Shown: piece after piece, positions 796 through 22,244 of the stretch
How positions within the stretch are numbered: position 1 is the stretch's first letter
Layout: every line of letters begins with the position of its first letter
Origin: a virus
DNA length: 23,608 nucleotides
Virus record (IMG/VR): IMGVR_UViG_3300042402_002075
Span: 1-23,608 of that record
Reading direction: 5' to 3' (one strand)
Position numbers and translations under genes: made by a program
The notes under the pieces: generated by a model
The model's database searches: none
Told to the model about the DNA's origin: nothing
Seen by the model: the letters and a program-made list of their open reading frames with translations, nothing else

Positions 796-1061
796 CAATT
801 CATGTTTGTTATCTCTAAGGTTCTTTATCCTCAGATTCTATACTTTCTTTTGTTATAGGTATAGTTCAGACTATATCATCTATGATTTAAAGATATTGGA
901 ATATCAAATCATAGTTCTGCGCTCTTGGACATTTTATCTTCAGCTCCACCCGGTAAGATTACTTTATCTAGTCGTTGCTCCTTCGACCTATTTCTAGGAA
1001 GCTTGGATCAGAGTTAACTACTTCTAGTCTTTCTCTGAGTTCACAGAATTTAATGCGGACA

Positions 1062-1817
1062 CTATTTATATTTCCATTTAAATCCACCAGCTGTTAAATT
1101 ATTTTTTATAGCTCTGGTGATATTTTTGATATTAAGAGTTTTTTGTGCTTCAGTGATAGATTCCCACTCTTTTATAGTAGCGTTACTTAAATCTATTTGT
1201 AACACTGGTCTTAATTTGTATTTTTTGTTAAGCTTATTAAGCTTGTCAACTTTAAAATAAGACCATCTATAATTATAAGCTGTATAGTTATCACCCCTCG
1301 CTGCAGAACATATAACAGAGTAATTATTTTTATCTCCAAAATATTCTGCTGCTTTAGTAGCATTTTCAAAAGATTTTATATACATACCTTCAAGAGAATA
1401 CATATAAGTCTCTTTTTGATTGTAAATTTTCCTACCTTTTTTAAAGCTATTCTTTGCACCTATACTTAATCTTTCTTTATAGATTTCACTTCTCTTAATC
1501 TCAACAGGATCTAATATGTGGTTAATTCTATAAGGTCTTTTTAATAGCTCTATATGATATTTTTCTCTTTCTAAAAGAAAGTTTTCATCACATATTTCTA
1601 CTACATCATATGTCATATTATCTATTCCATACTTATCAAACAATCTTTGCATTGTTTGATTATGATGTTTATTTGATAATAAATCAACTAGATGACCCTT
1701 TAATCTTTTACCTATACATTTAGAACTACCTATATACTTGTAGTCGTTAAACTGTATACAGTAAATACCACAGATTTTTAACCCTGTTTCTTCTTTTAAT
1801 TTGGAAATGTGTTTCAT
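1062..1817 (-). CDS. GIY-YIG homing endonuclease encoded in intron 1
   Basis: The protein has 251 residues. The GIY-YIG nuclease domain is at the N-terminus: GIY at 17-19, YIG at 28-30, a catalytic-type Arg near 38 and a Glu in LLEREKYH near 82-84. Basic linkers follow, then two NUMOD1-like DNA-binding modules, around residues 135-185 (KETYMYSLEGMYIKSF.N.TKAAEYF) and 210-251 (LQIDLSNATIKEWESITEAQ). The ATG at 1817 is preferred to an upstream TTG at 1862, because the homology-like region begins there and a hairpin abuts it. The stop codon ends 1 nt before the intron guide sequence, so the gene sits entirely in the P1 loop. Its likely role is to cut intronless alleles of the AAA+ gene and spread the intron. 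Confidence 0.9.
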   Translation of the reverse strand: MKHISKLKEETGLKICGIYCIQFNDYKYIGSSKCIGKRLKGHLVDLLSNKHHNQTMQRLFDKYGIDNMTYDVVEICDENFLLEREKYHIELLKRPYRINHILDPVEIKRSEIYKERLSIGAKNSFKKGRKIYNQKETYMYSLEGMYIKSFENATKAAEYFGDKNNYSVICSAARGDNYTAYNYRWSYFKVDKLNKLNKKYKLRPVLQIDLSNATIKEWESITEAQKTLNIKNITRAIKNNLTAGGFKWKYK

Positions 1818-1843
1818 ATTATATCTTTTTACAAAGATATAAT
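1818..1843 (-). promoter_or_regulatory. Perfect 11-bp hairpin with promoter-like TATCTTTG just before the nuclease start
   Basis: On the minus strand ATTATATCTTT and AAAGATATAAT pair over 11 bp around a GTAA loop (a GNRA tetraloop in RNA), and the ATG at 1817 follows directly. The left arm and loop contain TATCTTTG (1839-1832), a match to the Bacteroidetes -7 consensus TAnnTTTG. A CTTG lies 20 nt upstream of it, a plausible -33 element. Such a structure could hide the start codon in the long phage transcript but be absent from a short transcript started inside it, as in T4 intron nuclease genes. This role is inferred. Confidence 0.55.
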
Positions 1844-1844
1844 T

Positions 1845-1873
1845 TTTTAGCAAAGCAAGCAAGTTTGCTAAAA
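1845..1873 (-). repeat. 10-bp perfect inverted repeat near the 5' splice site of intron 1
   Basis: On the minus strand TTTTAGCAAA (1873-1864) and TTTGCTAAAA (1854-1845) are perfect complements around a 9-nt loop. The repeat starts 6 nt after the 5' splice site and ends just ahead of the nuclease start hairpin. It probably forms a stem in the P1 peripheral region and may keep the 5' splice site close to the distant guide sequence. Confidence 0.6.
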
Positions 1874-1879
1874 TTGTTT

Positions 1880-2308
1880 ATCCGCTCTGGTATAATCATC
1901 AAGAATTAGGATACCACCTTCTTTCTTATTATTGATCCACTCTGGAGCTGCATAACCCATGCGCTTATTACCGGTAGGTTTATACTGACTAGCTACATAT
2001 TGTGGAAGCAAACTCTCTGGAACCCACTTAACTGTTGTTTCTTTTACTACTTCAAACTCTTTAACTGGAAAACCTACTAGATCTGATAGATCTTCAAGCT
2101 CAGCCAAATTCAATCTTACAAGATCCATGTTAAGCTCTTTAGCAAGTTGTAGGATAGAACTTGTCTTACCAACACCTGCTGGACCCTCAACATTTACAGT
2201 TACGGGAGTAGTTCCCTTCTCTTGAAGGATCTGATTATTTGCAATAATATGACGCATGAACCCTTTAAGTTCATCTGCATTAAGACTGATTTGATTATTC
2301 TTTGCCAT
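1880..2308 (-). CDS. MoxR-like AAA+ ATPase, exon 1 (N-terminal part)
   Basis: The exon gives the first 143 residues of a 393-residue AAA+ ATPase. Walker A is GPAGVGKTS at residues 42-50. Walker B is GGILILDDYTRAD at the very end of the exon (131-143). If the intron is not removed, translation adds only K-Q-F and stops, leaving a dead protein cut directly after Walker B. The start ATG at 2308 lies 2 nt after the stop of the VWA/metallopeptidase gene, so the two are almost certainly co-transcribed and translationally coupled. The pair is the classic arrangement of a MoxR ATPase with its VWA partner. Confidence 0.88.
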
Positions 2309-2310
2309 GT

Positions 2311-3310
2311 TTAGTTAAGTTGAATTTTTACACCTTTTAAATCTTCATTCATTGTTCCATTGGTGGAAATTGCCCATAATACCGGACCTCTACATTTATC
2401 AGGGGCAGGAGCTTCGCCATCAGTAAAATATACTAGACAGCTATAATCTTTATGATGCTCATTGTAATAATCACATACTGGTTCAAAGCTCGTGCCCCCT
2501 CTACCATGTATGTGCATATCTTCGTTGATATTGAATTTACCTATGTGACTAATAGCTGTGTCACATTGTATCACCATAATATCTGTACCTGTTTTGTGTA
2601 TGTGATAAAGCTCATTCATAAACTCCTTAAGCTCTGTTGTAGATACTGATCCAGAGGTATCTATACCTACTAGAATCCTTCTTTTAGGTTTAACCTTGAG
2701 ACCTGGGGAGTCATCAAATCTATGATTCTCTTTTCTCCTAGTTCTCTTTACATATACTTGGGTAGAACCTCCTACAAATCTGCGTAAGAATCCTCTCCAA
2801 TCAAATTTAGCCTCTTCTACTTCATTAAGTTTCTTAAGAATCTCAGCAAACTCTCCAGGTATAGTACCTCTAGATTTCTCTACTTGGTCTGCTACTTCTT
2901 TAAGAATGTGCCCTGTTTGTTGTTCAATCAACTTCTTAGTTGCTTCAGGTAGCTTATCAAAGTCTTCCCAAGTACCATGATCAGGTAGATTTACTTTTAC
3001 TTTTACATTACCATCCTTACCTTTAGATACTTCTATAGTCATTTGACCATCCCCCATAGCATCCATCATATCATCTAAATTAGGACAAGTACCTGGATTA
3101 TTAGCAGCTTGTTGAAGCTTTTCATAATAATAGTTAGTACCCTGCTTAGATAAAAGATTTAGCTCTGGGAATAGATCTAGTGTCATACCACCTTCTGGTA
3201 GCATATCTTTATCAATATATTGATTGATTTCTATGTCCATAGCCCAGTTAGCAATCATCTTATTTGTAAGGTGGTTATAACTAGTCAAATGAGAGAAACC
3301 AATATGCAAT
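2311..3310 (-). CDS. VWA-domain/metallopeptidase-like protein, exon 2
   Basis: Spliced to 3614-3831 this gives 405 residues. The exon starts within a Leu codon (CT|A) and completes the zinc motif HELLH (71-75), followed by AMDIEIN (96-102), the AxDxxIN signature of the DUF2201 N-terminal putative metallopeptidase. A helical linker rich in charged residues covers about 130-270. The C-terminal VWA-like domain has an intact MIDAS: DTSGS (290-294), a Thr in GRGGTSF and an Asp in FTDGEA. It is the likely partner of the MoxR-like AAA+ gene 2 nt downstream. The frame can be opened at TTG 3309, but this is only the second Leu of HELLH and not a start. Confidence 0.88.
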
Positions 3311-3613
3311 CATTTGTGTTAACTTACATTCTCATGTAAGATCAGACTATACCTTTACCCTTTGTCAAGGGTAGTTTATTGTAGTCGTTGAACCTCTTTC
3401 TTGGATTGTAACTCATAAGATAAGTATCAAATTTTTATTCACATTACCAAGAAATTTGGCTGCGGATTGTCCAATTCTAAACCTTTTTACTGTACTGCTT
3501 TGATTACAAGCACCATATAAATATTACTATTTGTACTTAGTAGTTTAGACTCTAAGGAGTTTCCCGCAATTTAAAACTTTTTACATGCACATTACTGTAC
3601 AAGGAGCCCCTTG
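3311..3613 (-). ncRNA. Group I intron 2 (303 nt, no nuclease gene), inside the HELLH motif
   Basis: The 5' exon ends CACGAGCT and the intron begins CAAGGGGCTC. The exon GAGCT pairs with GGCTC in the intron around a short loop, with U.G at the splice site. The intron ends in G at 3311. The core is textbook on the minus strand: GCGGGAAACTCC and GGACAATCCGCAGCC (P4-P6 region), GGTTCAACGACTA (P3/P7, plus coordinates 3382-3394) and GGTATAGTCT (3' strand of P7, 3344-3353). The splice joins 218 and 1000 nt into one open frame and restores HELLH, a strong independent check. No ORF of useful length lies inside. Confidence 0.95.
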
Positions 3614-3831
3614 AGCTCGTGCTTCAATAATCCTTGCTGATGTTTCTCAACAAGCTTTGTCCAGAAGTCTTCACTAATAGTCAACTGATAGTTGATTCCA
3701 TTAAGACTCACTCCTGCGGTAGGGACTCTATTATCCCATACCTTGTTAAGCATGATAAGAAACATACCATAGAAAGGCTCTTTGAACATTAAGTTCTTAG
3801 ATGCTTTCGCTAGTGATTCCTGTTTTGTCAT
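3614..3831 (-). CDS. VWA-domain/metallopeptidase-like protein, exon 1
   Basis: This first exon encodes residues 1-72 and two bases of codon 73. It ends LLKHEL, the first half of the HELLH zinc-binding motif of DUF2201-type proteins. Without splicing the frame runs on into the intron (KGLLVQ) and stops. The start ATG at 3831 lies inside the end of the upstream gene (35-nt overlap), so translation is probably coupled. The N-terminal 60 residues are helical with no signal peptide, so the protein is probably cytoplasmic. Confidence 0.88.
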
Positions 3832-4228
3832 TATTTTTTAATTTAATTGTTATCTCAGTTTCTTCGATAAAATCAAATCCCAAATCTTTAATTGAGTTTG
3901 TAATATGTTTAGAAAACTGATTTAGAAAGAACTGGATATTCTCTTCTGATTGCTTTTCTTTTACAATAATCTTAAGAATCTCTTTGTAAGTTAAAGGTTT
4001 ATCTTTAGACATACTTTCAAGTTTCTTAAAAGTTTTAGGTGCCTGTTCCTTCCAATATTCAGGAGTTACATTACATAATTTCTTAAGTAATAATATCTTT
4101 GTAAGACTCTTTGTAAAATCTACATTCTCTAAAGTAACAAGACCTAATACTACATTTTGATTATCAGATGAGTTCAGCATGTTATATAAAGACTCAAATT
4201 GCTCATCATTAATTACTTCTTTTTTCAT
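3797..4228 (-). CDS. Unknown protein (143 aa) upstream of the VWA/AAA+ pair
   Basis: I do not recognise this protein. It is highly charged, Lys- and Glu-rich, and predicted mostly helical, with no signal peptide or membrane segment. It begins at 4228 in a TAATG overlap with the stop of the upstream DUF6915-like gene. It overlaps the VWA gene start by 35 nt. This tight coupling suggests co-expression with the VWA/AAA+ pair, so it could be a substrate adaptor, but nothing in its sequence shows that. Confidence 0.75.
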   Translation of the reverse strand: MKKEVINDEQFESLYNMLNSSDNQNVVLGLVTLENVDFTKSLTKILLLKKLCNVTPEYWKEQAPKTFKKLESMSKDKPLTYKEILKIIVKEKQSEENIQFFLNQFSKHITNSIKDLGFDFIEETEITIKLKNNDKTGITSESI

Positions 4229-4572
4229 TAATCTTCTATTTTAATTGTTCTAATCATCCACTCTGGCGGGTGTGTATCATTCAAATGATCTATCCATTCT
4301 TTAGCTGTAGGTATATAGTTAAAGCAATCTTCCCTGACATGTTGTTCACCAATATATCTAGTATAGACTCTTTTGTTTTGTGAATTGATAATGTATTTTC
4401 CAAATATTTTTTCACATTCAAATATACCTTCACTATGGTGTCTAAACATTCTGTGTTTAGAGTGACCAACCCAAGCTTTAGTTTCATCAAACCACTCCTC
4501 AATTTCCAAGTAGTCCTCAGGAACTCCTCCCCATTTTTTTGCAGCACTTCTGCTGTGATCATATGGATGCAT
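4228..4572 (-). CDS. DUF6915-like protein (114 aa)
   Basis: The sequence matches my memory of the DUF6915 family: an N-terminal HPYDHSRSAAKKWGG, a central WFDETKAWVGHSKHRMFRHHSEGIF rich in His, and a C-terminal YIGEQHVREDCFNYIPTAKEW. The family is found in phages and bacteria and has no established function. The conserved His and Glu residues suggest metal binding or catalysis, which is inference. The ATG at 4572 follows the HNH nuclease stop by a few bases. The 90-residue reading in another frame here is a shadow. Confidence 0.8.
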   Translation of the reverse strand: MHPYDHSRSAAKKWGGVPEDYLEIEEWFDETKAWVGHSKHRMFRHHSEGIFECEKIFGKYIINSQNKRVYTRYIGEQHVREDCFNYIPTAKEWIDHLNDTHPPEWMIRTIKIED

Positions 4573-4575
4573 AAA

Positions 4576-5331
4576 TCATAATTTTAAATTATTAATAATA
4601 GATTGTATGTGTTGAATAAACTCATCATGTGAGTACTTATTTTTCATCATATTACATTTTCCACAACAAGTGACACAATTATCACTTTCATAACCAAGAA
4701 AGTTATCTTTTCTATCAATACCATTATAATAAATAGACTTATTACCCTTTTGGATTTTATTTGCTGGTAAAACTCCACAGTAATAACAAGAAGAAAATAA
4801 ATAACTTTCAAAAACATCATTAGTAAGTTCAAAACTATAACCTCTTAATGTAGCATTCTTTTTATAAGATTGAAACAATGAGTTAATTAAAGCTTTTTTG
4901 TTTGAGTCAGTGAAAATTTCTCTTTTTTTCTTAAAACTACATTTTGTACAACAGTCTTTTTTTCTGTCAACTCTTGTACTAAATACTTCTCCACAAGTGC
5001 ATTGTACTTTAAAATATCTATGATTGCTAGTTGTTTTTTCGGCATCTTCTTCAAGATATCTTAAGTTATTACCTATAGCATCACCTTTTTTATAACTTAC
5101 TTTGTGTAATGGAGCAATAGATATTTTACAAGACTTATTTCCACAAGAAGTAATATACCCTGCTTTAATAGAAGCTAATTGTTTTACATGTTCAGTATTA
5201 CAAGAAGTGCACAAGACTTTTATATATCTCATACCTTTTCCTTTGTATCCCGCTTCATCTAAGTATTTAAGTTTTGTTACAATGTCAAACTTATTACTGA
5301 TTAACTCTCCTGGTTTTAGTGTGTATTTCAT
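4576..5331 (-). CDS. Free-standing HNH homing endonuclease with zinc modules (251 aa)
   Basis: The N-terminal half holds two repeated zinc-binding modules, each following a GE/GD-containing strand. The first is CTSC at 41-44 with CGNKSC at 63-68; the second is CTCG at 111-114 with CCTKC at 127-131. The C-terminal HNH domain has CYYC (182-185), NGIDRKDN (203-210), GY.SDNCV (213-220) and CCGKC (222-226), the usual phage HNH pattern with structural zinc. It lies between two small unrelated genes and has a promoter-like element of its own. No intron was found around it, so it looks like a free-standing mobile gene. Confidence 0.88.
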   Translation of the reverse strand: MKYTLKPGELISNKFDIVTKLKYLDEAGYKGKGMRYIKVLCTSCNTEHVKQLASIKAGYITSCGNKSCKISIAPLHKVSYKKGDAIGNNLRYLEEDAEKTTSNHRYFKVQCTCGEVFSTRVDRKKDCCTKCSFKKKREIFTDSNKKALINSLFQSYKKNATLRGYSFELTNDVFESYLFSSCYYCGVLPANKIQKGNKSIYYNGIDRKDNFLGYESDNCVTCCGKCNMMKNKYSHDEFIQHIQSIINNLKL

Positions 5332-5353
5332 GACTCATCCTTTTTGATTTAAA

Positions 5354-5373
5354 CAAATATACAAAATATATTT
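5354..5373 (-). promoter_or_regulatory. Bacteroidetes-type -7 element and inverted repeat before the HNH gene
   Basis: On the minus strand TATATTTG (5361-5354) matches TAnnTTTG and lies 22 nt before the ATG at 5331. AAATATA and TATATTT form a 7-bp inverted repeat (5373-5367 and 5361-5355) around 5 nt. No good -33 TTTG is at the right distance, so promoter activity is only likely. Confidence 0.4.
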
Positions 5374-5391
5374 ATTAGTTGGGATGTGACA

Positions 5392-5583
5392 TTACAAACC
5401 TGCTTTCTTAATAAAGTAACTTGCTACTTCAGGAATATGTTTCTTGTAGTAGGGTTGTTCTGATTTACACCAATTTTTTACTTCTTCTTTTGTAGAAAAT
5501 CTTTGATAAGGAAATGTAAGTTCAAGTTCATTTATAAAATCTTGTACTGTCCATCCTTCCCATATATATCTATTATTACCCAT
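5392..5583 (-). CDS. Unknown small protein (63 aa)
   Basis: I do not recognise it. The protein is aromatic-rich (YIWEGWTVQDFINEL), predicted helical and cytoplasmic. It starts at 5583 in a one-base TAATG overlap with the upstream DUF6878-like gene, the usual junction style in this genome. It ends 60 nt before the HNH gene start. Confidence 0.7.
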   Translation of the reverse strand: MGNNRYIWEGWTVQDFINELELTFPYQRFSTKEEVKNWCKSEQPYYKKHIPEVASYFIKKAGL

Positions 5584-5939
5584 TATTCTTTAGATTCAAA
5601 TTGACCTTCATGGTCAAAGGTTTCATACTCAGTAATTCTTATATTATTCTCAATAGTATACTCTGCAGTAGGTACTTTTATTAGAATTTGTCCCCAACCA
5701 CCATCATTATTATACCAGTCTTCTATGTGATTAAGCTGTGAATATGCAAGATCTTCAATAAAACTTTTAACTGAATCATCACAATAAAATGTCATATCAT
5801 CACCCTTATTATCTCGAAAACTTATTTCATCTATACCACCACTATCTCCACCACCGCTATAATTTACAACAATCTGTTTAATACCGTTATCTTGTAGATA
5901 TATCATAGCACCTATAAGATTAATTTTTTCTTTTTCCAT
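5583..5939 (-). CDS. DUF6878-like protein (118 aa)
   Basis: The pattern NYSGGGDSGGIDEI near residues 26-39, then FIEDLAYSQL and NNDGGWGQI, resembles the DUF6878 family as I recall it. The family is of unknown function and occurs in phages and bacterial defence-like contexts. The acidic composition and the Gly-Asp-rich loop suggest a small alpha/beta fold. It follows the SegE-like gene by 2 nt. Confidence 0.7.
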   Translation of the reverse strand: MEKEKINLIGAMIYLQDNGIKQIVVNYSGGGDSGGIDEISFRDNKGDDMTFYCDDSVKSFIEDLAYSQLNHIEDWYNNDGGWGQILIKVPTAEYTIENNIRITEYETFDHEGQFESKE

Positions 5940-5941
5940 AC

Positions 5942-6358
5942 TTATTTTTGTTTATAGAATCTACCTAGAATATTTGCATTTAGATAGAGATCATTCTCTA
6001 ACACACCATAGATAAATTGATACTTGACTTCTTGATAAGTAAGTTCTCCTTTAGTATAACAGATCCTGAGAATTTTTCTTGAAATCTTTATTCCACTTTT
6101 GTGAGCCTCTTTAAGAGTAACATTACTACTATAGTAATCTTCATAGTTAAGTTTATTTACTATTTCGTATTTCTTTTTACGCTTATCTGTAGAAAGGTTT
6201 TTGTTACTAAGCTTTTTCTTTCTACTAGAAAAGAAGCTTTTCTTCCCAATGTAAGAATAGGATTTACCTTTAATGATAGCTGTCATTTCATATACAAAGC
6301 CTACTGCTCCAGCAGGAATCATATCACGGGTAAACACCACTTGATTGTATATCCACAT
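5942..6358 (-). CDS. SegE-like GIY-YIG endonuclease (138 aa)
   Basis: The protein matches the SegE-type GIY-YIG family. GFVYEMTAII (20-29) stands for the GIY strand and YSYIGKKSF (34-42) for the YIG strand. A basic linker follows, then YEDYYSSN, the family's WKxYYGSS-like block. Next come KISRKILRICYTKGELTYQEVKYQF, with a Glu as the likely metal ligand, and YLNANILGRFY at the end. T4 SegE is a free-standing homing endonuclease. This copy lies between small unrelated genes with short spacing and has no promoter-like element that I can see. Confidence 0.78.
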   Translation of the reverse strand: MWIYNQVVFTRDMIPAGAVGFVYEMTAIIKGKSYSYIGKKSFFSSRKKKLSNKNLSTDKRKKKYEIVNKLNYEDYYSSNVTLKEAHKSGIKISRKILRICYTKGELTYQEVKYQFIYGVLENDLYLNANILGRFYKQK

Positions 6359-6370
6359 TTTATTTTGAAT

Positions 6371-6631
6371 TTAATTTGTGATAGTTAATTCTCCGGATAC
6401 TTTTATATAAGTCCAATCTGTATTACTAAATGTGTAGGTTTGATCATTTGATTTTTTAGGTAATTCCCAATTTAAACATCTATCAGTAAGACTAACTGCA
6501 CAATATTTTTTATTTCCACACTGAACAATTAGTATATAACAAACCATTATATCATAACTAGCTTGAATAACATCTCCACATTTGAATGTAGGAGTTTTAA
6601 CAAGATTAGTTGTATTGTCTATAACTTCCAT
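6371..6631 (-). CDS. Unknown small beta-rich protein (86 aa)
   Basis: I do not recognise it. The sequence alternates hydrophobic and polar residues, with a FKCGDVIQASYDIMV start typical of small SH3-like barrels and three scattered Cys residues. It starts at 6631, 2 nt after the primase stop, and so is probably in the same transcript. No membrane segment or signal is present. Confidence 0.65.
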   Translation of the reverse strand: MEVIDNTTNLVKTPTFKCGDVIQASYDIMVCYILIVQCGNKKYCAVSLTDRCLNWELPKKSNDQTYTFSNTDWTYIKVSGELTITN

Positions 6632-6633
6632 GT

Positions 6634-7623
6634 TTATTTAGGATTTAGTGTATTAGATAATAAAGGCATGATAAGTTCTCTTACTTTAGTAATACCGTGC
6701 TTTTCTACAGAGTCAGATAAATCTTTCTCCATCTCTAGAACTACAGAAGGTATTTGATATCTCTCTTTATACTTGTTCATAGATCTTATACCGGCTTCAT
6801 CATTATCAAAGAGAGTGCAGATATTCTTATACTTTCTTTTACATGCTTGAATTACGTGTTCTGGTATAAGGGTATTCTCACTATCTGGAGCAATAGCTTC
6901 AGCATTTCTAAAATTCAGTTTAACAAAAGTCATAAGATCCTTAAGAGAACTACAGATTACTAGATAATCTTTATCCATGGTTAGTTGATCCATACCTTGG
7001 ATGTAATCTCTTACCTTAATAAACTTAGTGTCTTTTGTTTTAGGTTGATATATCTTATAAAGAGTACCATCTTTTCTAAAATATCCATAGATGTTCTGAC
7101 CTGAAATAGAGAGTTCTTTTATTTCTCCATCTTCTTCTTTTGACATTGTATATCTTTCTAATGGATATACATTGTATTCTTCCAGTATATTAGAACCTAA
7201 ATAATATTTAGACCAATACTTTTGATCTAGATTATTCCAACCTCTTGTTTTAAAGTCTGTTACTTTATACTTAGAGTGTTTTTTAAATTCTTTGATTATA
7301 ACTTCTCCATGATTGAGAACATATTGATTATAGTCTTCTATAATTTTATGAGCTGTCTCTCCTCTTGTACTAAGATTGAATAGTTTTTGTACAAGATTAA
7401 TAGAGTCTCCGCTGTTATCAGTTGAGAAATCTTTATATCTGTAATCATTCTTTGCATGAGAATAATATATATACATACTTGGATTCTTCTCATTAGGATT
7501 GAATACAGATTTAATTTTTACATCTTGTCCACATAGCTTATCATCAAGATTTAAATAGTACTCAAATACCCATGTTTTAGGTATCTCTTGTAAATCTGAT
7601 ATTAAGGATTTAGTTCTTATCAT
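6634..7623 (-). CDS. DNA primase with Toprim domain (329 aa)
   Basis: The N-terminal part (about 15-75) has the layout of a DnaG zinc-binding domain: F.PNEKNPSMYIYY followed by YRYKDFSTDNSGDSINLVQ. It lacks the Cys/His ligands, so the fold seems kept without zinc. A central region precedes the Toprim domain: LVICSSLKDLM, where DnaG proteins have an EGxxD-type strand, then TLFDNDEAG, the DxDxAG metal motif. The protein should make primers for the DnaB-like helicase encoded in the same block. An intrinsic terminator separates it from SSB upstream. The odd first Toprim motif (Ser for Glu) is common in my memory of crAss-like primases but was not checked. Confidence 0.85.
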   Translation of the reverse strand: MIRTKSLISDLQEIPKTWVFEYYLNLDDKLCGQDVKIKSVFNPNEKNPSMYIYYSHAKNDYRYKDFSTDNSGDSINLVQKLFNLSTRGETAHKIIEDYNQYVLNHGEVIIKEFKKHSKYKVTDFKTRGWNNLDQKYWSKYYLGSNILEEYNVYPLERYTMSKEEDGEIKELSISGQNIYGYFRKDGTLYKIYQPKTKDTKFIKVRDYIQGMDQLTMDKDYLVICSSLKDLMTFVKLNFRNAEAIAPDSENTLIPEHVIQACKRKYKNICTLFDNDEAGIRSMNKYKERYQIPSVVLEMEKDLSDSVEKHGITKVRELIMPLLSNTLNPK

Positions 7624-7632
7624 AGTAATAAG

Positions 7633-7660: not shown

Positions 7661-7681
7661 TATTATTAACAGAATTAATTA

Positions 7682-8353: not shown

Positions 8354-8379
8354 TTTTGTTTTTGTTTACTTGTTTAATA

Positions 8380-8595
8380 TTACTTTTCGTAGTCAATTAT
8401 TGCTTTGCGAACATACTCTAAATCATTGGGAATTTCAAATGATTCAAACATTCCTTTAGGAGATTTGCAAGTATTCTCTCCATTGTTCTGAGTCTCAAAT
8501 ACATAGCGGATATTACCATCCTTATCTTTCTTGACTTTACCAAATAGAACAATAGAGAATAAACCTTCAAGAGTAAGAGCAGTGTCGACCATTTT
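8380..8595 (-). CDS. Sak4-like ATPase, exon 2
   Basis: The exon encodes the last 71 residues of the 227-residue ATPase. It begins with AAA ATG GTC; the spliced product reads KAKTIGK-MVDTALTLEGLFSIVLF, a continuous conserved block. The frame can be opened at ATG 8598, but that codon is the last three bases of the intron. The C-terminus (IPNDLEYVRKAIIDYEK) is a typical ending for phage RecA-fold ATPases of this kind. It ends 26 nt before the SSB start. Confidence 0.85.
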   Translation of the reverse strand, partial: KMVDTALTLEGLFSIVLFGKVKKDKDGNIRYVFETQNNGENTCKSPKGMFESFEIPNDLEYVRKAIIDYEK

Positions 8596-8872
8596 CATTA
8601 CTACCTTCTGGTTTCCCAGAGGATTAGACTATATCTTATACTATTTTATAACTCCAATAAAATAGTATCTCACCATTTCCCCTAAAGTTTTAATCTTTAG
8701 AGTACTCCCCATCACAGGGATAGTCGTTGAACCTTTATCCATTTCTGGATACTTGGCTGCTGATTGTCCAATCTTTACCTCTTTTACTATACTATAGTCA
8801 TTACTGCTATAGGGAGTGTGTAAAGTTCTAAGGAGTTTCCAGTCAGTTAGATGAGTACAGGCAAAATTATTT
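8596..8872 (-). ncRNA. Group I intron 3 (277 nt, no nuclease gene)
   Basis: The 5' exon ends GACTATTGGT (T at 8873) and the intron ends in G (8596). Minus-strand core elements are CTGGAAACTCC and GGACAATCAGCAGCC (P4-P6 region), GGTTCAACGACTA (plus 8721-8733) and GATATAGTCT (8635-8626). These match intron 2 closely, so the two share a recent ancestor. The P1 guide is less clear: GCC about 10 nt into the intron can pair with GGT of the exon. A 78-codon open frame crosses the intron, but it overlaps the ribozyme core and resembles no nuclease. Confidence 0.93.
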
Positions 8873-9340
8873 ACCAATAGTCTTTGCTTTTACTCTACGC
8901 TTACCATCCATATCTACTGATTCTTCAGCATGAGTAAGGAAATAGATCATTAGATCGTCTCTAAGATCTTTTGGTTTTTTTGCTACTGTTGCAAGTCCTG
9001 AAGCTATTTGAGTAAACTTATCATAGCCTTTCTCTGTAGCTCTGTCAAAATACTCAAATGAAGACATGTATTGAAAATCATCAATCACAATATTCTTGAT
9101 TTCTGGTCTAGAGCTATTAATATAATCTAAAGCTTTGATAATACCTTGTGGAGTACCGGTATTACTCAGATTACCATTAGGATTTTCTTTACTTACAGGT
9201 GTATACTTACTCTTCCATCCTTTGAAGGGTAAAGGTTTATTAGCAACATTAATAATAAATGTTTCTTTAGAATCAAGACCTTCAATACTTGTGGATTTAC
9301 CACTGCCTGACTCAGCAATTACTAAAATACTTTGTGCCAT
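8873..9340 (-). CDS. Sak4-like RecA-fold ATPase, exon 1
   Basis: The exon supplies residues 1-156 of a 227-residue protein. Walker A is AESGSGKST (9-17), Walker B is IKNIVIDDFQYM, and FLTHAEESVD is the sensor-like strand. This is the single-domain P-loop ATPase (AAA_24/Sak4-like) that crAss-like and many other phages place beside SSB; it assists single-strand annealing or recombination. The start ATG at 9340 overlaps the upstream stop by one base (TAATG). Unspliced mRNA would end at GK-stop and lose the C-terminal 71 residues. Confidence 0.85.
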
Positions 9341-15318: not shown

Positions 15319-15328
15319 GTTAGTTTGT

Positions 15329-15922: not shown

Positions 15923-15923
15923 C

Positions 15924-16268: not shown

Positions 16269-16270
16269 TA

Positions 16271-16936
16271 TTACCCAAGTTTTAAAATTTTAGCAATCTG
16301 TATTATTTCATCATGTGAAACTTCTTTACACCCTACTTTTAAACCATTTGGTTTACAATCAAATGAGTTTTCTATTTCAGAAGAAAATTGTCTTAATGTA
16401 CTTACACAATAAAATTCTTTTTGGTATTCTAAATACTTAGTTATGTTTTTGTGGATACCTATTAAATCTTTCCAAACATTATTAAAATAATAACATTTAT
16501 ATTGTCCTATAAGTATTTGACCTTCACAAAAAGAATGTAAATCATAATAAGTTATTTCATCTTTAGTAGCTAATCTTTTCCAAGTATTAGGATTATTATT
16601 AACAGCTTCTATTGAAGCATAATTAGGTCTCCATTCTTTTTGATAATCATTTTTATAAACAACAGTAGTATAAGCTTTCTTTTCTCCTTCATGCCAAACC
16701 CAATCACCTACTTTAAAATTATTCATAGGCGTTTCTATTACTTCAAACCAATCAGATAATTCTATATCTAAATGGTCTTCTTTATATTTACCATTTAAAT
16801 AATCAGCTAAAAATTTATCAGAATTATGAGTATTAATAAGGTAAGAATATTTAATTCTAAATGCTTCTGGAGATAAAATAGTATATGCTTTATCAAAAGG
16901 AGTATCTTTTAATATTTTTATATTATATTGAAACAT
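16271..16936 (-). CDS. Unknown protein (221 aa)
   Basis: I do not recognise it. A short segment FKVGDWVWHEGEKKAYTTVV (around residues 74-93) resembles the small SH3-like modules common in phage accessory proteins. The rest is aromatic and Lys-rich with helical ends. A repeated-domain origin is possible, since the region around 115-165 again has CEGQILIGQYKCYYF. Codon use is as A+T-rich as in its neighbours. Confidence 0.7.
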   Translation of the reverse strand: MFQYNIKILKDTPFDKAYTILSPEAFRIKYSYLINTHNSDKFLADYLNGKYKEDHLDIELSDWFEVIETPMNNFKVGDWVWHEGEKKAYTTVVYKNDYQKEWRPNYASIEAVNNNPNTWKRLATKDEITYYDLHSFCEGQILIGQYKCYYFNNVWKDLIGIHKNITKYLEYQKEFYCVSTLRQFSSEIENSFDCKPNGLKVGCKEVSHDEIIQIAKILKLG

Positions 16937-16942
16937 TTCTAT

Positions 16943-17173
16943 TTATTTTATTAAAGTTAATGGGTAAGCGTTTAGAACAGCATCTTCTACTTCTTCATAA
17001 GTTGCTATATCGCTACTAGAACCTAGACAAGGTATGCTTTCTAAGGCCTCTTTCAAAGCAGCTTCAACATGTAGTTTAGCAAACTCAATTAGCATTTCTT
17101 CTATATCCACATGAGAATCATTATTGTTTTCTTCAATGTAGTTTTGATAAAATGCTTTTGCTGTTGGTATCAT
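16943..17173 (-). CDS. Unknown small acidic protein (76 aa)
   Basis: The sequence MIPTAKAFYQNYIEENNN...IEEMLIEFAKLHVEAALKEAL is a pattern I recall from many small Bacteroidetes phage proteins: an N-terminal A..F, then an amphipathic EFAKLHVEAALKEA helix. Its function is unknown. It starts 1 nt after the newly noted 40-residue Cys protein. Confidence 0.75.
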   Translation of the reverse strand: MIPTAKAFYQNYIEENNNDSHVDIEEMLIEFAKLHVEAALKEALESIPCLGSSSDIATYEEVEDAVLNAYPLTLIK

Positions 17174-17174
17174 A

Positions 17175-17297
17175 TTATTTATTTTTTACAGGTTTAGGTG
17201 TACATACATGACCATCACTCCATTTAATTCCTGGAGGAGGTGTTGTTTCTGGTGAGCTGTACTTGGTACCACACTCACTACATATAAATTTATTCAT
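17175..17297 (-). CDS. Tiny Cys-containing protein, possible half zinc ribbon (40 aa)
   Basis: The frame is short but convincing: MNKFICSECGTKYSSPET, a Pro-rich turn (TPPPGIKW), then SDGHVCTPKPVKNK. CSEC plus His 30 and Cys 32 could bind one zinc. The ATG at 17297 overlaps the end of the upstream gene by 8 nt (ATGAATAA), and the stop lies just before the next start, so it fills an otherwise empty 116-nt gap in a tightly packed operon. Confidence 0.7.
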   Translation of the reverse strand: MNKFICSECGTKYSSPETTPPPGIKWSDGHVCTPKPVKNK

Positions 17298-17562
17298 TGT
17301 CTTGTTTTTTAGTTGGTGGATTATAGTTTTTAATAATATAGGCTAATATTTCTGAGTCATCCCAAGATCCTGATTCAGCCATTATTATATCCCAACCTTC
17401 ACCTTCCTTCATGGTTAACCAGTTATCAGCCATATCTTGTTGACATTGAGTGTAGCCATTGATAAAGCCAGCACTAAAAAAACCATATTCCCCTCCAATG
17501 CCCCCTTGGATGTCTCTATAAATTTCTAATTTTAACTGTTCTATTTCTTCTTTTGTTTTCAT
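17290..17562 (-). CDS. Unknown protein (90 aa)
   Basis: The ATG at 17562 is preferred to the longer frame (to 17592), as it follows the upstream stop by one base and starts MKTKEEIEQLKLEIYRDI. Motifs include FFSAGFINGYTQCQQDMADNW and WDIIMAESGSWDDSE. This resembles small conserved proteins of Bacteroidetes phages, of unknown function. No membrane segment. Confidence 0.72.
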   Translation of the reverse strand: MKTKEEIEQLKLEIYRDIQGGIGGEYGFFSAGFINGYTQCQQDMADNWLTMKEGEGWDIIMAESGSWDDSEILAYIIKNYNPPTKKQDNE

Positions 17563-17563
17563 A

Positions 17564-17962
17564 TTATCTATAATTACCTCCAGTAGTATCACCTATCTGT
17601 ATGATAGCTTCAATAGCTAGGGCTAGTTCATCTTTACTACAATCTGCAAAGGATTTACATATCATAAATACTTCACCTCCCAGATTCTTTTTTACACATA
17701 AGCCTGCTTGTCTCTTGACTTCAAGCTTCATGTCTTCAAAGCTATAGCCAGTATCCTTGGCTAGTTCTCTTATACATGCATGGATCTTAGCTAGTTGAGG
17801 CACGGTGCCATTATCAGTAGTAGCTTCCATGAATACCTCAACTATCTGATCTTCTTCTACAGTTTTAACAAACTCATTATACTTAGCTGAAGATCCCGCA
17901 TCTCTATGCTCTAGTTTATCACCCTTCTTTACTAGGTGACCATGATAAATACTGTGTTTCAT
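17564..17962 (-). CDS. Possible NinB-like recombination protein (132 aa)
   Basis: The pattern YNEFVKTVEEDQIVEVFMEAT, then a helix with PQLAKIHACIRELAKDTG, then YSFEDMKLEVKRQAGLC, recalls the NinB/Orf family of phage recombination mediators, which bind single-stranded DNA. The Arg-Gln contact residues of NinB are not all visible, so this is tentative. The C-terminal segment (SKDELALAIEAIIQIGDTTGG) is also in keeping. It starts at 17962, sharing one base with the upstream stop. Confidence 0.72.
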   Translation of the reverse strand: MKHSIYHGHLVKKGDKLEHRDAGSSAKYNEFVKTVEEDQIVEVFMEATTDNGTVPQLAKIHACIRELAKDTGYSFEDMKLEVKRQAGLCVKKNLGGEVFMICKSFADCSKDELALAIEAIIQIGDTTGGNYR

Positions 17963-18174
17963 TACTTGTCTCCTTCTCCATTAAGAATTGAGTTAAGTTG
18001 ATCTAATACACTTTGATTATTCTTTGTCCAAAGCATATTACATTTGAACTCATTTTTCTCAAGTGTATATGGTTCTTTTGTAAAATAAGATTGATATTCA
18101 CTGGGTTTTGCAGTGTAGCGAAAACACTGATCTTTCAGGGGACAATTGGTACCTTTACAAAGGGTTATATCCAT
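17962..18174 (-). CDS. Small conserved Cys protein (70 aa)
   Basis: The N-terminus, ITLCKGTNCPLKDQCFRYTAKPSEYQSYF, plus a later Cys (FKCNMLW) is a pattern I remember from many crAss-like and related phages, and the four Cys (6, 11, 17, 45) could bind zinc. Its function is unknown. It sits just downstream of a free-standing nuclease gene, with 12 nt between them. Confidence 0.78.
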   Translation of the reverse strand: MDITLCKGTNCPLKDQCFRYTAKPSEYQSYFTKEPYTLEKNEFKCNMLWTKNNQSVLDQLNSILNGEGDK

Positions 18175-18186
18175 TTGATTTTATTT

Positions 18187-18849
18187 TTAAAATATGTAAC
18201 ATTCAGTTTCTCCTTTGAAATTAATCAAAGGTTTATACTTGTACTTTTTAAATAGTCTTTTTGTTTTATTTTCTAGATCATAGATATATCCCGACTCACC
18301 TTCTATAATTTTAATTATTTCATAGTTATAAGGAATATAAGTCATTCTTTTTTTAGGATTTCTTGTAGTAATACCTATTTTAATAAAAGTCTCAGTATCA
18401 TTATAAAGCCTTACTTTATACAAGTAAGCTGTAGATGCCAGTCTTTTCCACTGTGATCTTGACCATCCTCTTTTAACTTTACAACATGATTTTGTGTGAC
18501 CAGCTTGTATATTACCTATAAGACTTTCCCAGTGTTTTTTACAAATAGGACATTCAAATATTGCTCTTTGAGCATGCTTATATGTACCGCAGCTTCTTAT
18601 AAATTTTATTCCATTAATGATGTCCCCTTCATTATATATGAAAGGTTTGTTTCCTTTCTTGCATCCACAACTTTTTCTTTTATTATTTACAACATCAACC
18701 ACCCTTGTATTAAATTGCTTACCACAATGACATTTAAATTCTGCCATTCTTATTTTTGTTTTTTTATAGTAGCTAGGTGCTATATCATATAGATAGATAA
18801 TATTATGATTACCTACTATTTGATTTGGAAGTTGCTTATAATGTTTCAT
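18187..18849 (-). CDS. Free-standing nuclease: zinc modules plus GIY-YIG-like T5orf172 domain (220 aa)
   Basis: Residues 39-63 (CHCG, SCGC) and 100-123 (CPIC, SCC) are two zinc modules like those in the HNH gene at 4576-5331. The C-terminal domain (142-220) has YLYKVRLYN, FIKIGITTRNPKKRM, an E-containing helix (GYIYDLENKTKRLFKKYKY) and GETECY, the T5orf172/MUG113-type GIY-YIG pattern. This would be a homing-type nuclease. The ATG at 18849 was chosen over a start at 18894, because the upstream segment is promoter-like. It sits between unrelated small genes. Confidence 0.82.
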   Translation of the reverse strand: MKHYKQLPNQIVGNHNIIYLYDIAPSYYKKTKIRMAEFKCHCGKQFNTRVVDVVNNKRKSCGCKKGNKPFIYNEGDIINGIKFIRSCGTYKHAQRAIFECPICKKHWESLIGNIQAGHTKSCCKVKRGWSRSQWKRLASTAYLYKVRLYNDTETFIKIGITTRNPKKRMTYIPYNYEIIKIIEGESGYIYDLENKTKRLFKKYKYKPLINFKGETECYIF

Positions 18850-18857
18850 AACAAGAT

Positions 18858-18892
18858 GTTTGTAGCAAATATACATAATATCTGCTACAAAC
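18858..18892 (-). promoter_or_regulatory. Promoter-like element within a 10-bp inverted repeat before the nuclease gene
   Basis: On the minus strand GTTTGTAGCA (18892-18883) and TGCTACAAAC (18867-18858) are perfect inverted repeats around 15 nt. TATATTTG (18873-18866), a TAnnTTTG match, overlaps the second arm. The ATG follows 16 nt after the TATATTTG. The layout suggests an operator or hairpin on a host-type promoter, unproven. Confidence 0.5.
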
Positions 18893-18914
18893 ACATGGTT
18901 ATGTCCATAATTAA

Positions 18915-19226
18915 TTAAGCTGGTTCTACTAAAGAAACTTCTTTTTTAAGAGCTTCTTCCGCAAGTTTGTCTATTATTTCATCCAGCTCTTCCAAGTTTT
19001 CAAGATCATCTGCTATTATAGCAAATCTCCAGGCACCAAAGTATTGGTAAGGGAAGTAAGGGTCTAAGTCTATTTCATATAGCTTGTACCCTATAGCTCC
19101 TCCTTGCATGTGTAATCTATCTACCTGTACAACAGTATAGATATTTTCTACTTTAACCCATGATCTTGTTGGGATAGACTCTGGTCTATCTGAGTCATTT
19201 ATACATATGACTCTGAAAGGCATCAT
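18915..19226 (-). CDS. Conserved small phage protein, SH3-like (103 aa)
   Basis: The sequence PFRVICINDSDRPESIPTRSWVKVENIYTVVQV followed by GYKLYEIDL and FPYQYFGAWRFAII is one I recall from Bacteroidetes phages; it reads like a small SH3-type barrel (an 'R.W.K.G.IYTV' unit) with an acidic tail. Its function is unknown. It starts at 19226, sharing ATGA with the upstream stop. Confidence 0.78.
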   Translation of the reverse strand: MMPFRVICINDSDRPESIPTRSWVKVENIYTVVQVDRLHMQGGAIGYKLYEIDLDPYFPYQYFGAWRFAIIADDLENLEELDEIIDKLAEEALKKEVSLVEPA

Positions 19227-19516
19227 TCTTCTTCGGAAATTATCTTCTCAATAATAACCTGATCCTCAGCATTATAATCAGGATTCCACTCAGGATTAGT
19301 AGAGTATCCTTTTACATAATGACCATGAACATTAGCATCAGCTCTAAGAGTCTTATGATACTCTTCTTCATTAATTTTTAATGAGCTTAACACTGGTTCA
19401 CCAAGAGGCATGAAGTTATGATCTGCACTATAGGCATTAATAGATAGCTCCTCATCAAACTGCTGTGTGATGATCACTATGTTCTTGTCTTTAATTGTAA
19501 GCGCTGTCTGTGGCAT
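19223..19516 (-). CDS. Unknown protein (97 aa)
   Basis: The start ATG at 19516 is preferred; upstream codons in this frame duplicate the coding region of the next gene. The sequence MPQTALTIKDKNIVIITQQFDEELSINAYSA is a beta hairpin-like start, followed by HFMPLGEP-like and ANVHGHYVKGY segments with several His. No domain is recognised. One base separates it from the previous stop. Confidence 0.72.
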   Translation of the reverse strand: MPQTALTIKDKNIVIITQQFDEELSINAYSADHNFMPLGEPVLSSLKINEEEYHKTLRADANVHGHYVKGYSTNPEWNPDYNAEDQVIIEKIISEEE

Positions 19517-19517
19517 A

Positions 19518-20081
19518 TTATAGATTTTGTCTAAAAATCCAATCCTCAAAGTCAAATTTACTATATCTTCCAGCATCAAATGCATCAGATAATATAGCTT
19601 TAACTTCAGATAAAGGTATAGATTTTTCTTTGGTTGGTTTAAACTTTTTAGGTTTATTTTCTTGGTCAATTAATAAGGTAGCTGTACCAAACTTATAGCA
19701 GCATGATTCACATAGAGTTTGAGATCTACTAGCTTCGAAGTGACTATTACAATACTGACACTCCATGTGGTAATGACCTTCTTTAAAAGGTAGAGCATTG
19801 AATTCATAATTGCTGTTTTGATTAAGCAGTTTGATACCTATCTTCCAGTCTCTATCTCTAAGAATTGCTTCTAAATCGCTATCAACAATTACAATTTCAT
19901 GTAATTCCCAATCATATTTAACTTTAGTACCAGCATCTGTAATCCACTGGTCTTTAACTATATGTGATAGTTTAGATATTTCTACATAAGCAGCATTAAA
20001 AGGGTCATACACAGCTACTTGCATACCCTCAAATAGATCTTTATCATCTAATACTTGGGCTACTATAGTACCATTAGTCAT
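19518..20081 (-). CDS. Unknown protein with a C-terminal zinc ribbon (187 aa)
   Basis: The first 100 residues are strand-prone (GTIVAQVLDDKDLFEGMQVAVYDPFNAAYVEIS). A Cys motif at about 109-127 (CQYCNSHF...LCESCC) is a typical four-Cys zinc ribbon. The tail contains SKFDFEDWIF. Function unknown; zinc ribbons of this type often mediate protein or nucleic-acid contact. It overlaps the upstream gene by 8 nt. Confidence 0.75.
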   Translation of the reverse strand: MTNGTIVAQVLDDKDLFEGMQVAVYDPFNAAYVEISKLSHIVKDQWITDAGTKVKYDWELHEIVIVDSDLEAILRDRDWKIGIKLLNQNSNYEFNALPFKEGHYHMECQYCNSHFEASRSQTLCESCCYKFGTATLLIDQENKPKKFKPTKEKSIPLSEVKAILSDAFDAGRYSKFDFEDWIFRQNL

Positions 20082-20277
20082 CTTTCCAGGTTTTAATACT
20101 TAGATAAATGTCATATAAAGTTGAGCGAGATAGCTTTTTAAGATAGAGTCTGTCAAAGCGCCACCCGGTTACTTCATCAAACTTAGCAAAATCTTCTAAG
20201 TATTTTTGCATATTAACACTAGGATCTGTACCACAGATCATGTTAATAAAGTCTTCTTTGTCAAGTGTTACTTCCAT
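20074..20277 (-). CDS. Unknown small protein (67 aa)
   Basis: I do not recognise it. It is a helical, mildly acidic protein (LDKEDFINMICGTDPS, YLEDFAKFDEVTGWRFDRLYLKKL). It overlaps the next gene downstream by 8 nt, which supports its start at 20277. Confidence 0.7.
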   Translation of the reverse strand: MEVTLDKEDFINMICGTDPSVNMQKYLEDFAKFDEVTGWRFDRLYLKKLSRSTLYDIYLSIKTWKDD

Positions 20278-20398
20278 TTTTATTCCTCCAATAAAATCTT
20301 GAATAATTTCTATAAAACTCTATACCACATATAGTATAAGACCAGAACTCAATCAATCTATACTTTGATACTCTAATAAATTCAACAAGTCTTTTCAT
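20261..20398 (-). CDS. Possible tiny basic protein (45 aa)
   Basis: An ATG at 20398 opens a 45-codon frame, MKRLVEFIRVSKYRLIEFWSYT..., that fills the gap between the genes at 20074 and 20382. It overlaps both neighbours by about 17 nt. The protein is basic and aromatic-rich. The gap would otherwise be 104 nt with no gene, unusual here, but an unrelated frame could be open by chance. Confidence 0.4.
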   Translation of the reverse strand: MKRLVEFIRVSKYRLIEFWSYTICGIEFYRNYSRFYWRNKNGSNT

Positions 20399-20591
20399 AG
20401 TTTTTTTCTCGTTGTTTTACTAACTCATCATATATGGATGATATTCGTGCCTTATCCTCTTTAGTATATGTAAGCCATTCACCACCATATCTTATGAATA
20501 AGTATGTAATATAAAACGCATTAAATATCTTACCAGTAATTGCAAGGCACAATACAAACGGTGATGCTATTATTCTAATTATTAAGCTCAT
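20382..20591 (-). CDS. Small membrane protein (69 aa)
   Basis: One transmembrane helix (about 5-33: IRIIASPFVLCLAITGKIFNAFYITYLFI) is followed by RYGGEWLTYTKEDKARISSIYDEL, a polar tail likely in the cytoplasm. The N-terminal motif 'LIIRIIASPFVL' is familiar from Bacteroidetes phage proteins of unknown function. It overlaps the next upstream gene by 4 nt. Confidence 0.75.
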   Translation of the reverse strand: MSLIIRIIASPFVLCLAITGKIFNAFYITYLFIRYGGEWLTYTKEDKARISSIYDELVKQREKNYEKTC

Positions 20592-20788
20592 AGTTTTTCT
20601 ATTTCTTGTTTAACTTCTTGCCAATACCTATGTTCAGACTCTAGGTTTTGTACATCCATCCAATCAAAATTGATTGCTTTTATGATTTCATCTACTGCTA
20701 TCAATGCAGATTCTTTTGCATTGTCACACTCTCTACAACTAAATGTAAATAGTTGAACAAGTTCATTTGCTTTTTCTTTTGGTACCAT
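20588..20788 (-). CDS. Small conserved protein (66 aa)
   Basis: The sequence KANELVQLFTFSC..CDNAKESALIAVDEIIKAI is a pattern I recall from Bacteroidetes phages, where a helix with AK..ALIAVDEI is a mark. Function unknown. It starts 2 nt after the ClpS stop, and its own stop overlaps the membrane-protein start by 4 nt. Confidence 0.72.
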   Translation of the reverse strand: MVPKEKANELVQLFTFSCRECDNAKESALIAVDEIIKAINFDWMDVQNLESEHRYWQEVKQEIEKL

Positions 20789-20790
20789 GA

Positions 20791-21081
20791 TTATTCAATA
20801 GTTACTGTTAAATCTTCTTGTTCAAGCTTTTCTTTAATAGGTTTAAGCTTTTTCATATTTCCTTGCTTAATAGAACACTTACCATTGTTATGCACAATCA
20901 TAGCACATTGCTCTGCTTGTACCATACTATGACCGCAATGCTTCATTAAACAGAGAATTACATGGTCAAATGTATTATGGTCATCATTCCATAATACTAT
21001 AGCCTTAGAAGGTTCAAGTAACTCCTTGATTAAGGAGTCTACCTGAACTTCTTCTTCAGTTTCAACTGAATACTTTATCAT
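20791..21081 (-). CDS. clpS: ClpS-like adaptor (96 aa)
   Basis: This matches the ClpS adaptor of the N-end rule. The N-degron pocket residues are in VLWNDDHNTFDHVI (Asn 32, Asp 33, Asp 34) and in MIVHNNGK (His 64). A helical CLMKHCGHSMVQAEQCA bridges them. Bacterial ClpS docks on ClpA/ClpC through its N-terminal tail; here the tail (about 20 residues) is short and acidic. Phage copies may redirect host proteolysis, but which proteins would be presented is unknown. It overlaps the ParB-like stop by 4 nt. Confidence 0.85.
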   Translation of the reverse strand: MIKYSVETEEEVQVDSLIKELLEPSKAIVLWNDDHNTFDHVILCLMKHCGHSMVQAEQCAMIVHNNGKCSIKQGNMKKLKPIKEKLEQEDLTVTIE

Positions 21082-21806
21082 TTTCCAGTATAAGTTTTGT
21101 GAATCAAGTCATAAATATATCCTGAATCATGTGGAATATTCTTAAAGTTTTTATTGTCTTTAATTTTATCCATTAGTCTCTTATGGTTATACTTACCATT
21201 AAGAGATCTGTAGAAAGCAAGATATGCTCTATGAAACTTTGCACTATTTGTTTTTACTAATGAAGATACTTCAAGAAGATTCTGAGTGATCTTATTATGC
21301 TCTACTTCAGTGATTTTAAACTCACCATTCTTTACAGTATCACAACCTCTTCCTGATACAGTAACACCTGAAAGAATACTTGCAGATATAGCCACACTAA
21401 GACCATTTGCAATTGCATGATTCTTTAGTTTAAAATAATTTTCATTACCTGTACCACAATATGAATTAACATAGTCAATCAAAGTCCATCTCTGATTAAC
21501 ATTGTTAAGCATAGCCATCATATTTACAATTTCTGAAAGAGATTCACAATCAATTACAATACCTTTAATTGAATCAATATCAAGTCTTTTACATGCTTCA
21601 ATAAGATGTTGACCATCAAGAATATAATATTCAAGTCTGCCTGTAATAGATTTTGTTTTTACAAATACAGGAATTCTAAGTATTCCAGAAACTGTAATAG
21701 CATTCATTAAAGATCTTACTTGTTTTTCTGTAAGATTTCTATTGAATGGAAATGTAAGAAGTTTAGAAATGTTTACTTTTTCTATAGCATATTGATTTGC
21801 TTTCAT
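21078..21806 (-). CDS. ParB-like (Spo0J N-terminal domain) protein (242 aa)
   Basis: The ATG at 21806 was chosen over GTG 21884, because the segment before it is the end of the helicase gene in another frame. It starts MKANQYAIEKVNISKLLTFPFNRNLTEKQV and holds DGQHLIEACKRL, the equivalent of the ParB GxHR/GERR box. VNMMAMLNNVNQRWT follows, with a helical C-terminal half. ParB-like proteins in phages may act in partition, transcription or DNA nicking. Here it lacks a recognisable helix-turn-helix, and its role is unknown. Confidence 0.78.
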   Translation of the reverse strand: MKANQYAIEKVNISKLLTFPFNRNLTEKQVRSLMNAITVSGILRIPVFVKTKSITGRLEYYILDGQHLIEACKRLDIDSIKGIVIDCESLSEIVNMMAMLNNVNQRWTLIDYVNSYCGTGNENYFKLKNHAIANGLSVAISASILSGVTVSGRGCDTVKNGEFKITEVEHNKITQNLLEVSSLVKTNSAKFHRAYLAFYRSLNGKYNHKRLMDKIKDNKNFKNIPHDSGYIYDLIHKTYTGK

Positions 21807-21829
21807 GTCTCTAAGGTTTTTTGAGTTTT

Positions 21830-21962
21830 TTAAATCCAGGTTATTTTGTTTTGATCCAGGTCTTCTAATGCTTCTTGTACCCACTTCTGATCTACTGTAT
21901 CCTTATAACATAGGATATGTATAGTAGCTGTATCATCAGGGTTAAGTCTAAGCAGCCTACCT
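21830..21962 (-). CDS. SF2 helicase, exon 2
   Basis: The exon is only 133 nt. It completes motif VI as QRL-GRLLRLNPDDTATIHILCY and the C-terminus (DTVDQKWVQEALEDLDQNKITWI, stop at 21832-21830). It has no start codon of its own and is too short for most gene finders, so it would be missed without the intron. The two 944- and 133-nt exons sum to an exact number of codons. Its end lies 23 nt before the ParB-like start. Confidence 0.9.
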
Positions 21963-22244
21963 CTAGGCATATGTTTGTCCAACAAAAGCTTTTAATGTTG
22001 AACTCCTACATTTCTGTAGGGATTGGACTATATCTTTATTTGCATATACTAGTTTATAACCAGTAGATAAAAATATTTAATTATGCAAATATTCCCCGTT
22101 TCCATGTAATAGCTAGTTACACGTACTCTATTTCTAGATAGTCTCTGCACCTTTCTTTTAAAAAGACTTGGCTCAGGATTGCCTTCAACTTTACTTGTTA
22201 AGGTTTCCCTGAATTAAAGGAATTTAAAGAGGTCAGGTATGTTT
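21963..22244 (-). ncRNA. Group I intron 4 (282 nt, no nuclease gene), in helicase motif VI
   Basis: The 5' exon end AGAGGTT pairs with GACCTCT a few bases into the intron: seven pairs ending in U.G at the splice site. The intron ends in G (21963). Core elements on the minus strand are CAGGGAAACC and GGCAATCCTGAGCC (P4-P6), AGAGACTATC (P3/P7 side) and GATATAGTCC (3' P7, 22034-22025). It is more diverged from introns 2 and 3 than those are from each other. No open frame of use lies inside. Confidence 0.92.

Follow-up and report, generated by a model that had tools for sequence, protein, structure and literature searches.

Group I introns interrupt four conserved genes of a probable crAss-like phage, with signs of homing between phages

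Results

Four introns on one strand of a phage contig

We analyzed a stretch of viral DNA, the complete IMG/VR record IMGVR_UViG_3300042402_002075 (23,608 bases, hereafter the window), and observed that four of its conserved genes are interrupted by group I introns. These are numbered I1 to I4 and all lie on the minus strand, in genes for a MoxR-like ATPase, a metallopeptidase/vWA protein, a Sak4-like ATPase and a helicase. We consider it very probable that all four are self-splicing introns which arrived by homing from other phages. The element is of a known kind. Close relatives show that these introns have been gained, have passed from phage to phage and have lost DNA-cutting genes.

An earlier note on this DNA had proposed the four introns and a covariance-model search on the minus strand. 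We ran this search with the Rfam model RF00028 (gathering score 50). The scan of the whole window gave 102 bits at 22004-22299 (I4), 80.4 bits at 3323-3639 (I2) and 58.1 bits at 853-1105 (I1), and I3 reached 70.7 bits (E 4.5e-18) when 8500-8950 was scanned alone; all four introns were therefore above the gathering score. The predicted intervals and junctions (1880/795, 3614/3310, 8873/8595 and 22245/21962) were exact to a single base. As the 5' U / 3' G rule predicts, T closes the left exons (1880, 3614, 8873, 22245) and G closes the introns (796, 3311, 8596, 21963). Removal of the introns restored continuous conserved proteins in frame, as had been claimed (DDYTRAD/ARFMQA, HEL/LHIGFSH, KTIG/KMVDTA and KQRL/GRLLR, the slash marking the junction), and uninterrupted homologues cross every one of the four junctions.

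The core helices, that is the P7 pair GACUA/UAGUC and the P3-P8 core, were placed by position in all four introns. P1 has a U.G pair at the 5' splice site in each of them. P10 with the 3' exon comprises 4-5 bp in I1, I3 and I4 and only 3 pairs in I2. Group I introns tend to lie at conserved sites (PMC2814812), so the placement of I1-I4 in conserved motifs is expected. Close relatives carry empty-site alleles for all four introns; the proteins of these alleles are 96-98% identical to those of the window for I1 and I2, 93% for I4 and about 89% for I3. Intein and pseudogene readings were rejected, since excision at the ribozyme boundaries restores the frame exactly.

Intron 3 occurs with and without an endonuclease gene

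I3 (8596-8872, 277 nt) carries a P5a extension and P7.1/P7.2. It interrupts the gene of a Sak4-like ssDNA-annealing ATPase at KTIG/KMVDT, between a 5' exon at 8873-9340 (AAA_24, 1.7e-9) and a 3' exon at 8380-8595. The in-frame junction is crossed by 142 uninterrupted phage homologues, in a search that ranks by best segment and so disfavours split genes. We read P1 from the sequence as GGU/AAA (8875-8870) paired with UUUUGCC (8866-8860); P8 has 11 bp, and P10 is AAAAU with AUUUU.

The site is filled by an identical (100%) intron in related loci L088 and L231, filled by an intron with a homing endonuclease gene (HEG) in L084/L085, and empty in L004-L008. In L084/L085 the HEG is of the GIY-YIG type, lies in the P8 loop and ends in AGGFKWSYKIV* (the L084 gene matches phrog_314, homing endonuclease, at 1.6e-18). 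Directly after the P8 5' strand, I3 of the window keeps the remnant TGGAGTTATAAAATAGTATAA (8636-8656, minus strand), which encodes WSYKIV* and matches the last codons of that gene. The enzyme of I1 has the C-terminus AGGFKWKYK, the same motif as the end of the L084/L085 enzyme. The shared ending makes deletion of the HEG in the window copy more likely than gain in the other, and we infer from it that I3 is a deletion derivative.

Further, we compared I3 and its flanks between the window and L084/L085. The intron differs at 1 of 277 nt (99.6% identical); farther than 200 nt from it, about 18% of exon positions differ. Few exon mismatches fall in the first 75 nt or so upstream or in the first 165 nt or so downstream of the intron; they become frequent 76 nt upstream and about 168 nt downstream. 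The empty allele L004 differs from 4 nt on. The relatives thus form a natural series at one codon, with empty, HEG-bearing and HEG-less alleles and with transfer tracts, and this series makes the intron homing cycle testable in uncultured crAss-like phages.

Intron 1 encodes a putative homing endonuclease

I1 (796-1879, 1084 nt, IA-like) separates the 5' exon (1880-2308) from the 3' exon (43-795) of the MoxR-like gene, with an in-frame junction. The spliced protein has 393 aa and matches phrog_1297 (ATPase, 1.3e-33). The site adjoins the Walker B motif of this AAA ATPase (LILDDYTRAD/ARF). P1 is formed by GCGGAU (1885-1880) and GUCCGC (1060-1055), and P10 by GCUA and UAGU (1064-1061); P7 is GACUA (973-969) with UAGUC (873-869), according to the Rfam alignment and the motif positions.

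I1 is the only one of the four introns to encode a homing endonuclease. Its HEG (1062-1817, minus strand, 251 aa) has GIY-YIG and NUMOD1 domains (Pfam, 2.5e-6 and 4.5e-7) and matches phrog_314 (4.2e-14). The gene occupies the P1 loop, with the 5' splice site on one side of it and the internal guide sequence on the other, and its stop codon UAG overlaps the P10 strand. Used as a search query, it matched four close contigs and nothing beyond them. The layout with the HEG in the P1 loop recurs at the same MoxR codon in L092, L125, L144 and L201. The exons of hosts with an I1-family intron at this codon are 56-63% identical, and the guide sequence fits each site. In record G023 an I1-related intron lies at MoxR codon 76, and its guide is changed to match (GGGGAU/GUCCCC).

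The I1 site is filled in L084-L087, whereas L007 and L004 have the empty site. Compared with L084/L085, the window differs by 1.9% across the 1084 nt of I1 and by about 7-13% in its exons. The sign of co-conversion is weaker here than at I3.

Just upstream of the I1 HEG we observed TATCTTTG (1832-1839, minus strand), which fits the -7 promoter element of Bacteroidota, TAnnTTTG. Of 10 intron HEGs, 8 have this element upstream, against 0.81 expected (0 of 300 shuffles); none of 25 ordinary genes of the window has it. Several of the 10 HEGs are homologous, which leaves about five independent promoter cases. A Bacteroidota-type promoter of its own probably drives expression of the I1 endonuclease gene.

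Intron 2 and the neighbouring intron sites

I2 (3311-3613, 303 nt) has no HEG; it carries a P5a extension and lacks P7.1/P7.2. It interrupts the HExxH motif (LLKHEL/LHIGFSH) of a DUF2201_N metallopeptidase / vWA protein, whose exons at 3614-3831 (5') and 2311-3310 (3') join in frame. The spliced protein matches Pfam DUF2201 (3.2e-15) and DUF2201_N (5.4e-15). P1 is GAGCU with GGCUC, and P3-P9 were also placed. The site is filled at 100% identity in L086-L088 and empty in L007 (96% identical protein), L004, L084 and L085. Record G124 (L334) has an I2-like intron at the identical codon, with a 3' half 79.5% identical and a LAGLIDADG gene in the P6 loop. Co-conversion of the flanks as such was seen neither at I2 nor at I4.

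In the MoxR gene, introns occupy codons 46, 76, 142 and 143 in different phages; in the vWA gene they occupy codons 73, about 97 and about 340. Four of them lie within about 6 kb of G124, a 109-kb crAss-like contig (L201/L334): vWA 73 and about 340 (LAGLIDADG) and MoxR 46 and 143 (GIY-YIG). Downstream of I2, at 3259-3214 of the window, a tract of ~45 nt has about 14 differences from L007, which is intronless and otherwise near-identical. The tract is centred on the vWA97 intron site of G023 and encodes KMIANWAMDIEINQ, where nearly all other distinct homologues have N[IV]AMD, N[IV]AAD or NIAFD. We tentatively suggest that the adjacent MoxR-like and metallopeptidase/vWA genes could be a long-lived intron hot spot in this lineage. 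At the rival vWA97 site, the I2 lineage would have recoded the ~45 nt (NIAMD to NWAMD); the change may reflect immunity to a second homing endonuclease or a conversion scar left by it.

Intron 4 in the helicase gene

I4 (21963-22244, 282 nt, IA-like) has P7.1/P7.2 and P9.1 and no HEG. It interrupts motif VI (KQRL/GRLLR) of a ResIII/SNF2-type helicase, between a 5' exon at 22245-23188 (Pfam ResIII 7.5e-10, Helicase_C 3.7e-8) and a 3' exon at 21831-21962, with an in-frame junction. P1 is GAGGUU with GACCUC, and P10 is AGGUA with UACCU. A 100% identical copy is present in L163, and the site is empty in L162 (93% protein identity). In a wider helicase search, 79 of the 80 listed loci had an empty site; judged by match length, an insertion was found in the L163 contig only.

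Discussion

Proposed cycle and alternative explanations

We propose that each intron would excise itself after transcription by the two-step guanosine mechanism. P1 would fix the 5' splice site through its U.G pair, the 3' site would be set by P10 together with the terminal G, and excision would restore the mRNAs of the MoxR ATPase, the metallopeptidase/vWA protein, Sak4 and the helicase. At the DNA level, an intron-encoded endonuclease would cut the intronless allele of a co-infecting phage, and repair would copy the intron together with its flanks. I1 retains its GIY-YIG endonuclease gene, and I3 seems to have lost its own by deletion; I2 lacks the endonuclease that its same-site relative has, and I4 is without any. 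The analysis shows the structure of the ribozymes, the precise junctions, alleles with and without each intron, I3 with and without an endonuclease gene and the signatures of transfer. From these we infer splicing in vivo, the direction of the I3 endonuclease change, endonuclease activity and promoter use.

Several points weigh against this explanation. The evidence for splicing and for homing comes from sequence. I3 gave no RF00028 match when the whole window was scanned, with E<=1 allowed, because the search filters drop it, and its P4 has a bulged A. No HEG-bearing relative of I4 was found, so the homing of I4 is deduced from its patchy distribution alone.

Without splicing, stops interrupt each gene, and the source is an uncultured metagenome contig, so the genes could simply be broken, by decay or misassembly, and the inserts inert debris. 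We regard this as very improbable: identical filled alleles (100%) are present in other contigs (L086-L088, L163, L231), the intron boundaries are exact and in frame with intact downstream exons, and the ribozyme cores retain compensatory pairs across lineages. Mainly vertical inheritance with repeated intron loss and little homing would agree with the I1 and I2 sites being filled in distant relatives, but it is improbable given that I3 and I1 are much closer to L084/L085 than their exons are, with a gradient at I3, and that the I4 site is empty in nearly all listed loci.

The earlier note had also read the sequence blocks common to I2 and I3 as spread within this genome. The sharing is real, in P4-P6 and P7, and both introns have the P5a extension; moreover, G023 and G124 have related introns at neighbouring sites of the same genes. 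However, the blocks belong to the generic group I core and recur in at least 120 other viral stretches. The direct match of I2 and I3 covers only 42 nt of P4-P6 (42.8 bits), whereas I2 matches the same-codon intron of the distant phage G124 at 105 + 53.6 + 37.4 bits, the best other matches of I3 (152 bits) lie in other contigs, and P7.1/P7.2 are present in I3 and absent from I2. We judged kinship by BLAST scores and hand-placed helices and avoided a tree, because a MAFFT alignment of all introns misplaces P6-P7 of I2. The reading in which a single intron moved from one gene into another and so gave rise to I2 and I3 is not supported and is improbable, and we retain arrival by homing from other phages.

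Spread within a genome is likely in another phage. The jumbo-phage-like record G128 (IMGVR_UViG_3300001041_000014; L284, L335-L337) has 22 RF00028 matches along 100 kb. Three HEG-less introns (265, 274 and 261 nt) lie in its RNA polymerase beta gene, and their removal leaves exons of 89 and 22 nt. Over all junctions, the predicted spliced protein could be aligned with the beta protein of phage AR9 (36% identity, 176 bits). The three introns resemble each other at 58-80%, apart from one short partial match with a lower value, and this likeness is what suggests spread inside G128.

Phage identity, intron density and known systems

Matches of the DnaB and helicase of the window include crAss-like and Flavobacterium phages, and the portal of its relative G124 matches the same phages. 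The window has no capsid or terminase genes, and megablast of the window against annotated phages gave no match. These protein matches point to a crAss-like phage of Bacteroidota as the probable source.

The density that the note had singled out for a closer look is high against relatives: 4 introns in 23.6 kb, compared with 8 matches in 234 kb of 17 close relatives and 6 in 2.82 Mb of 100 wider relatives. The relatives were scanned as complete records, so that an intron like I3 may have gone unseen in them. The test against the wider relatives (P(>=4) = 2.6e-7) is descriptive only, since the window was chosen for its introns. The density is not unprecedented, as crAss-like phages have up to 14 group I introns per genome (Yutin et al. 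2021, PMC7886860), Jug phages have 18.5 on average (PMC12363816), and G128 also carries more. Record G136 (L235, L338) has nine RF00028 matches in 66 kb.

The published crAss-like phages resemble the window in having group I introns in core replication genes, including the AAA ATPase ATP_43b (PMC7886860), which may correspond to the Sak4-like gene. Those introns were located via endonuclease domains, whereas three of the four introns of the window have no endonuclease gene, and the main text of that study does not mention MoxR and vWA hosts. Endonuclease-domain searches miss HEG-less introns, and gene callers will split the four conserved genes in genomes of this kind. Bastillevirinae (PMC11878797) and Jug phages (PMC12363816) also have group I introns in essential genes, some with GIY-YIG, LAGLIDADG or HNH HEGs, and splicing of many was demonstrated by RNA reads or in vitro; they differ from the window in phage group and host genes. 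An intron-encoded endonuclease that acts on a co-infecting phage is known in gp210 of phi-PA3 (PMC11620839). It is an HNH nicking enzyme, unlike the putative GIY-YIG and NUMOD1 enzyme of I1.

Freestanding endonuclease genes

The window also contains freestanding endonuclease genes. An HNH/endonuclease VII-like gene (4576-5331, in a stretch at 4544-5382) is absent from the close relatives L084, L004 and L007, and a T5orf172-type gene (18187-18894) is absent from the close relative L162. A SegE-type GIY-YIG gene (5942-6358) belongs to a stretch that shares 94.6% identity with L084, while its neighbours are about 80-82% identical. An open reading frame segment of 86 aa (6356-6637) is missing in L004, L007, L084, L086 and L087 and is present in the window and L088.

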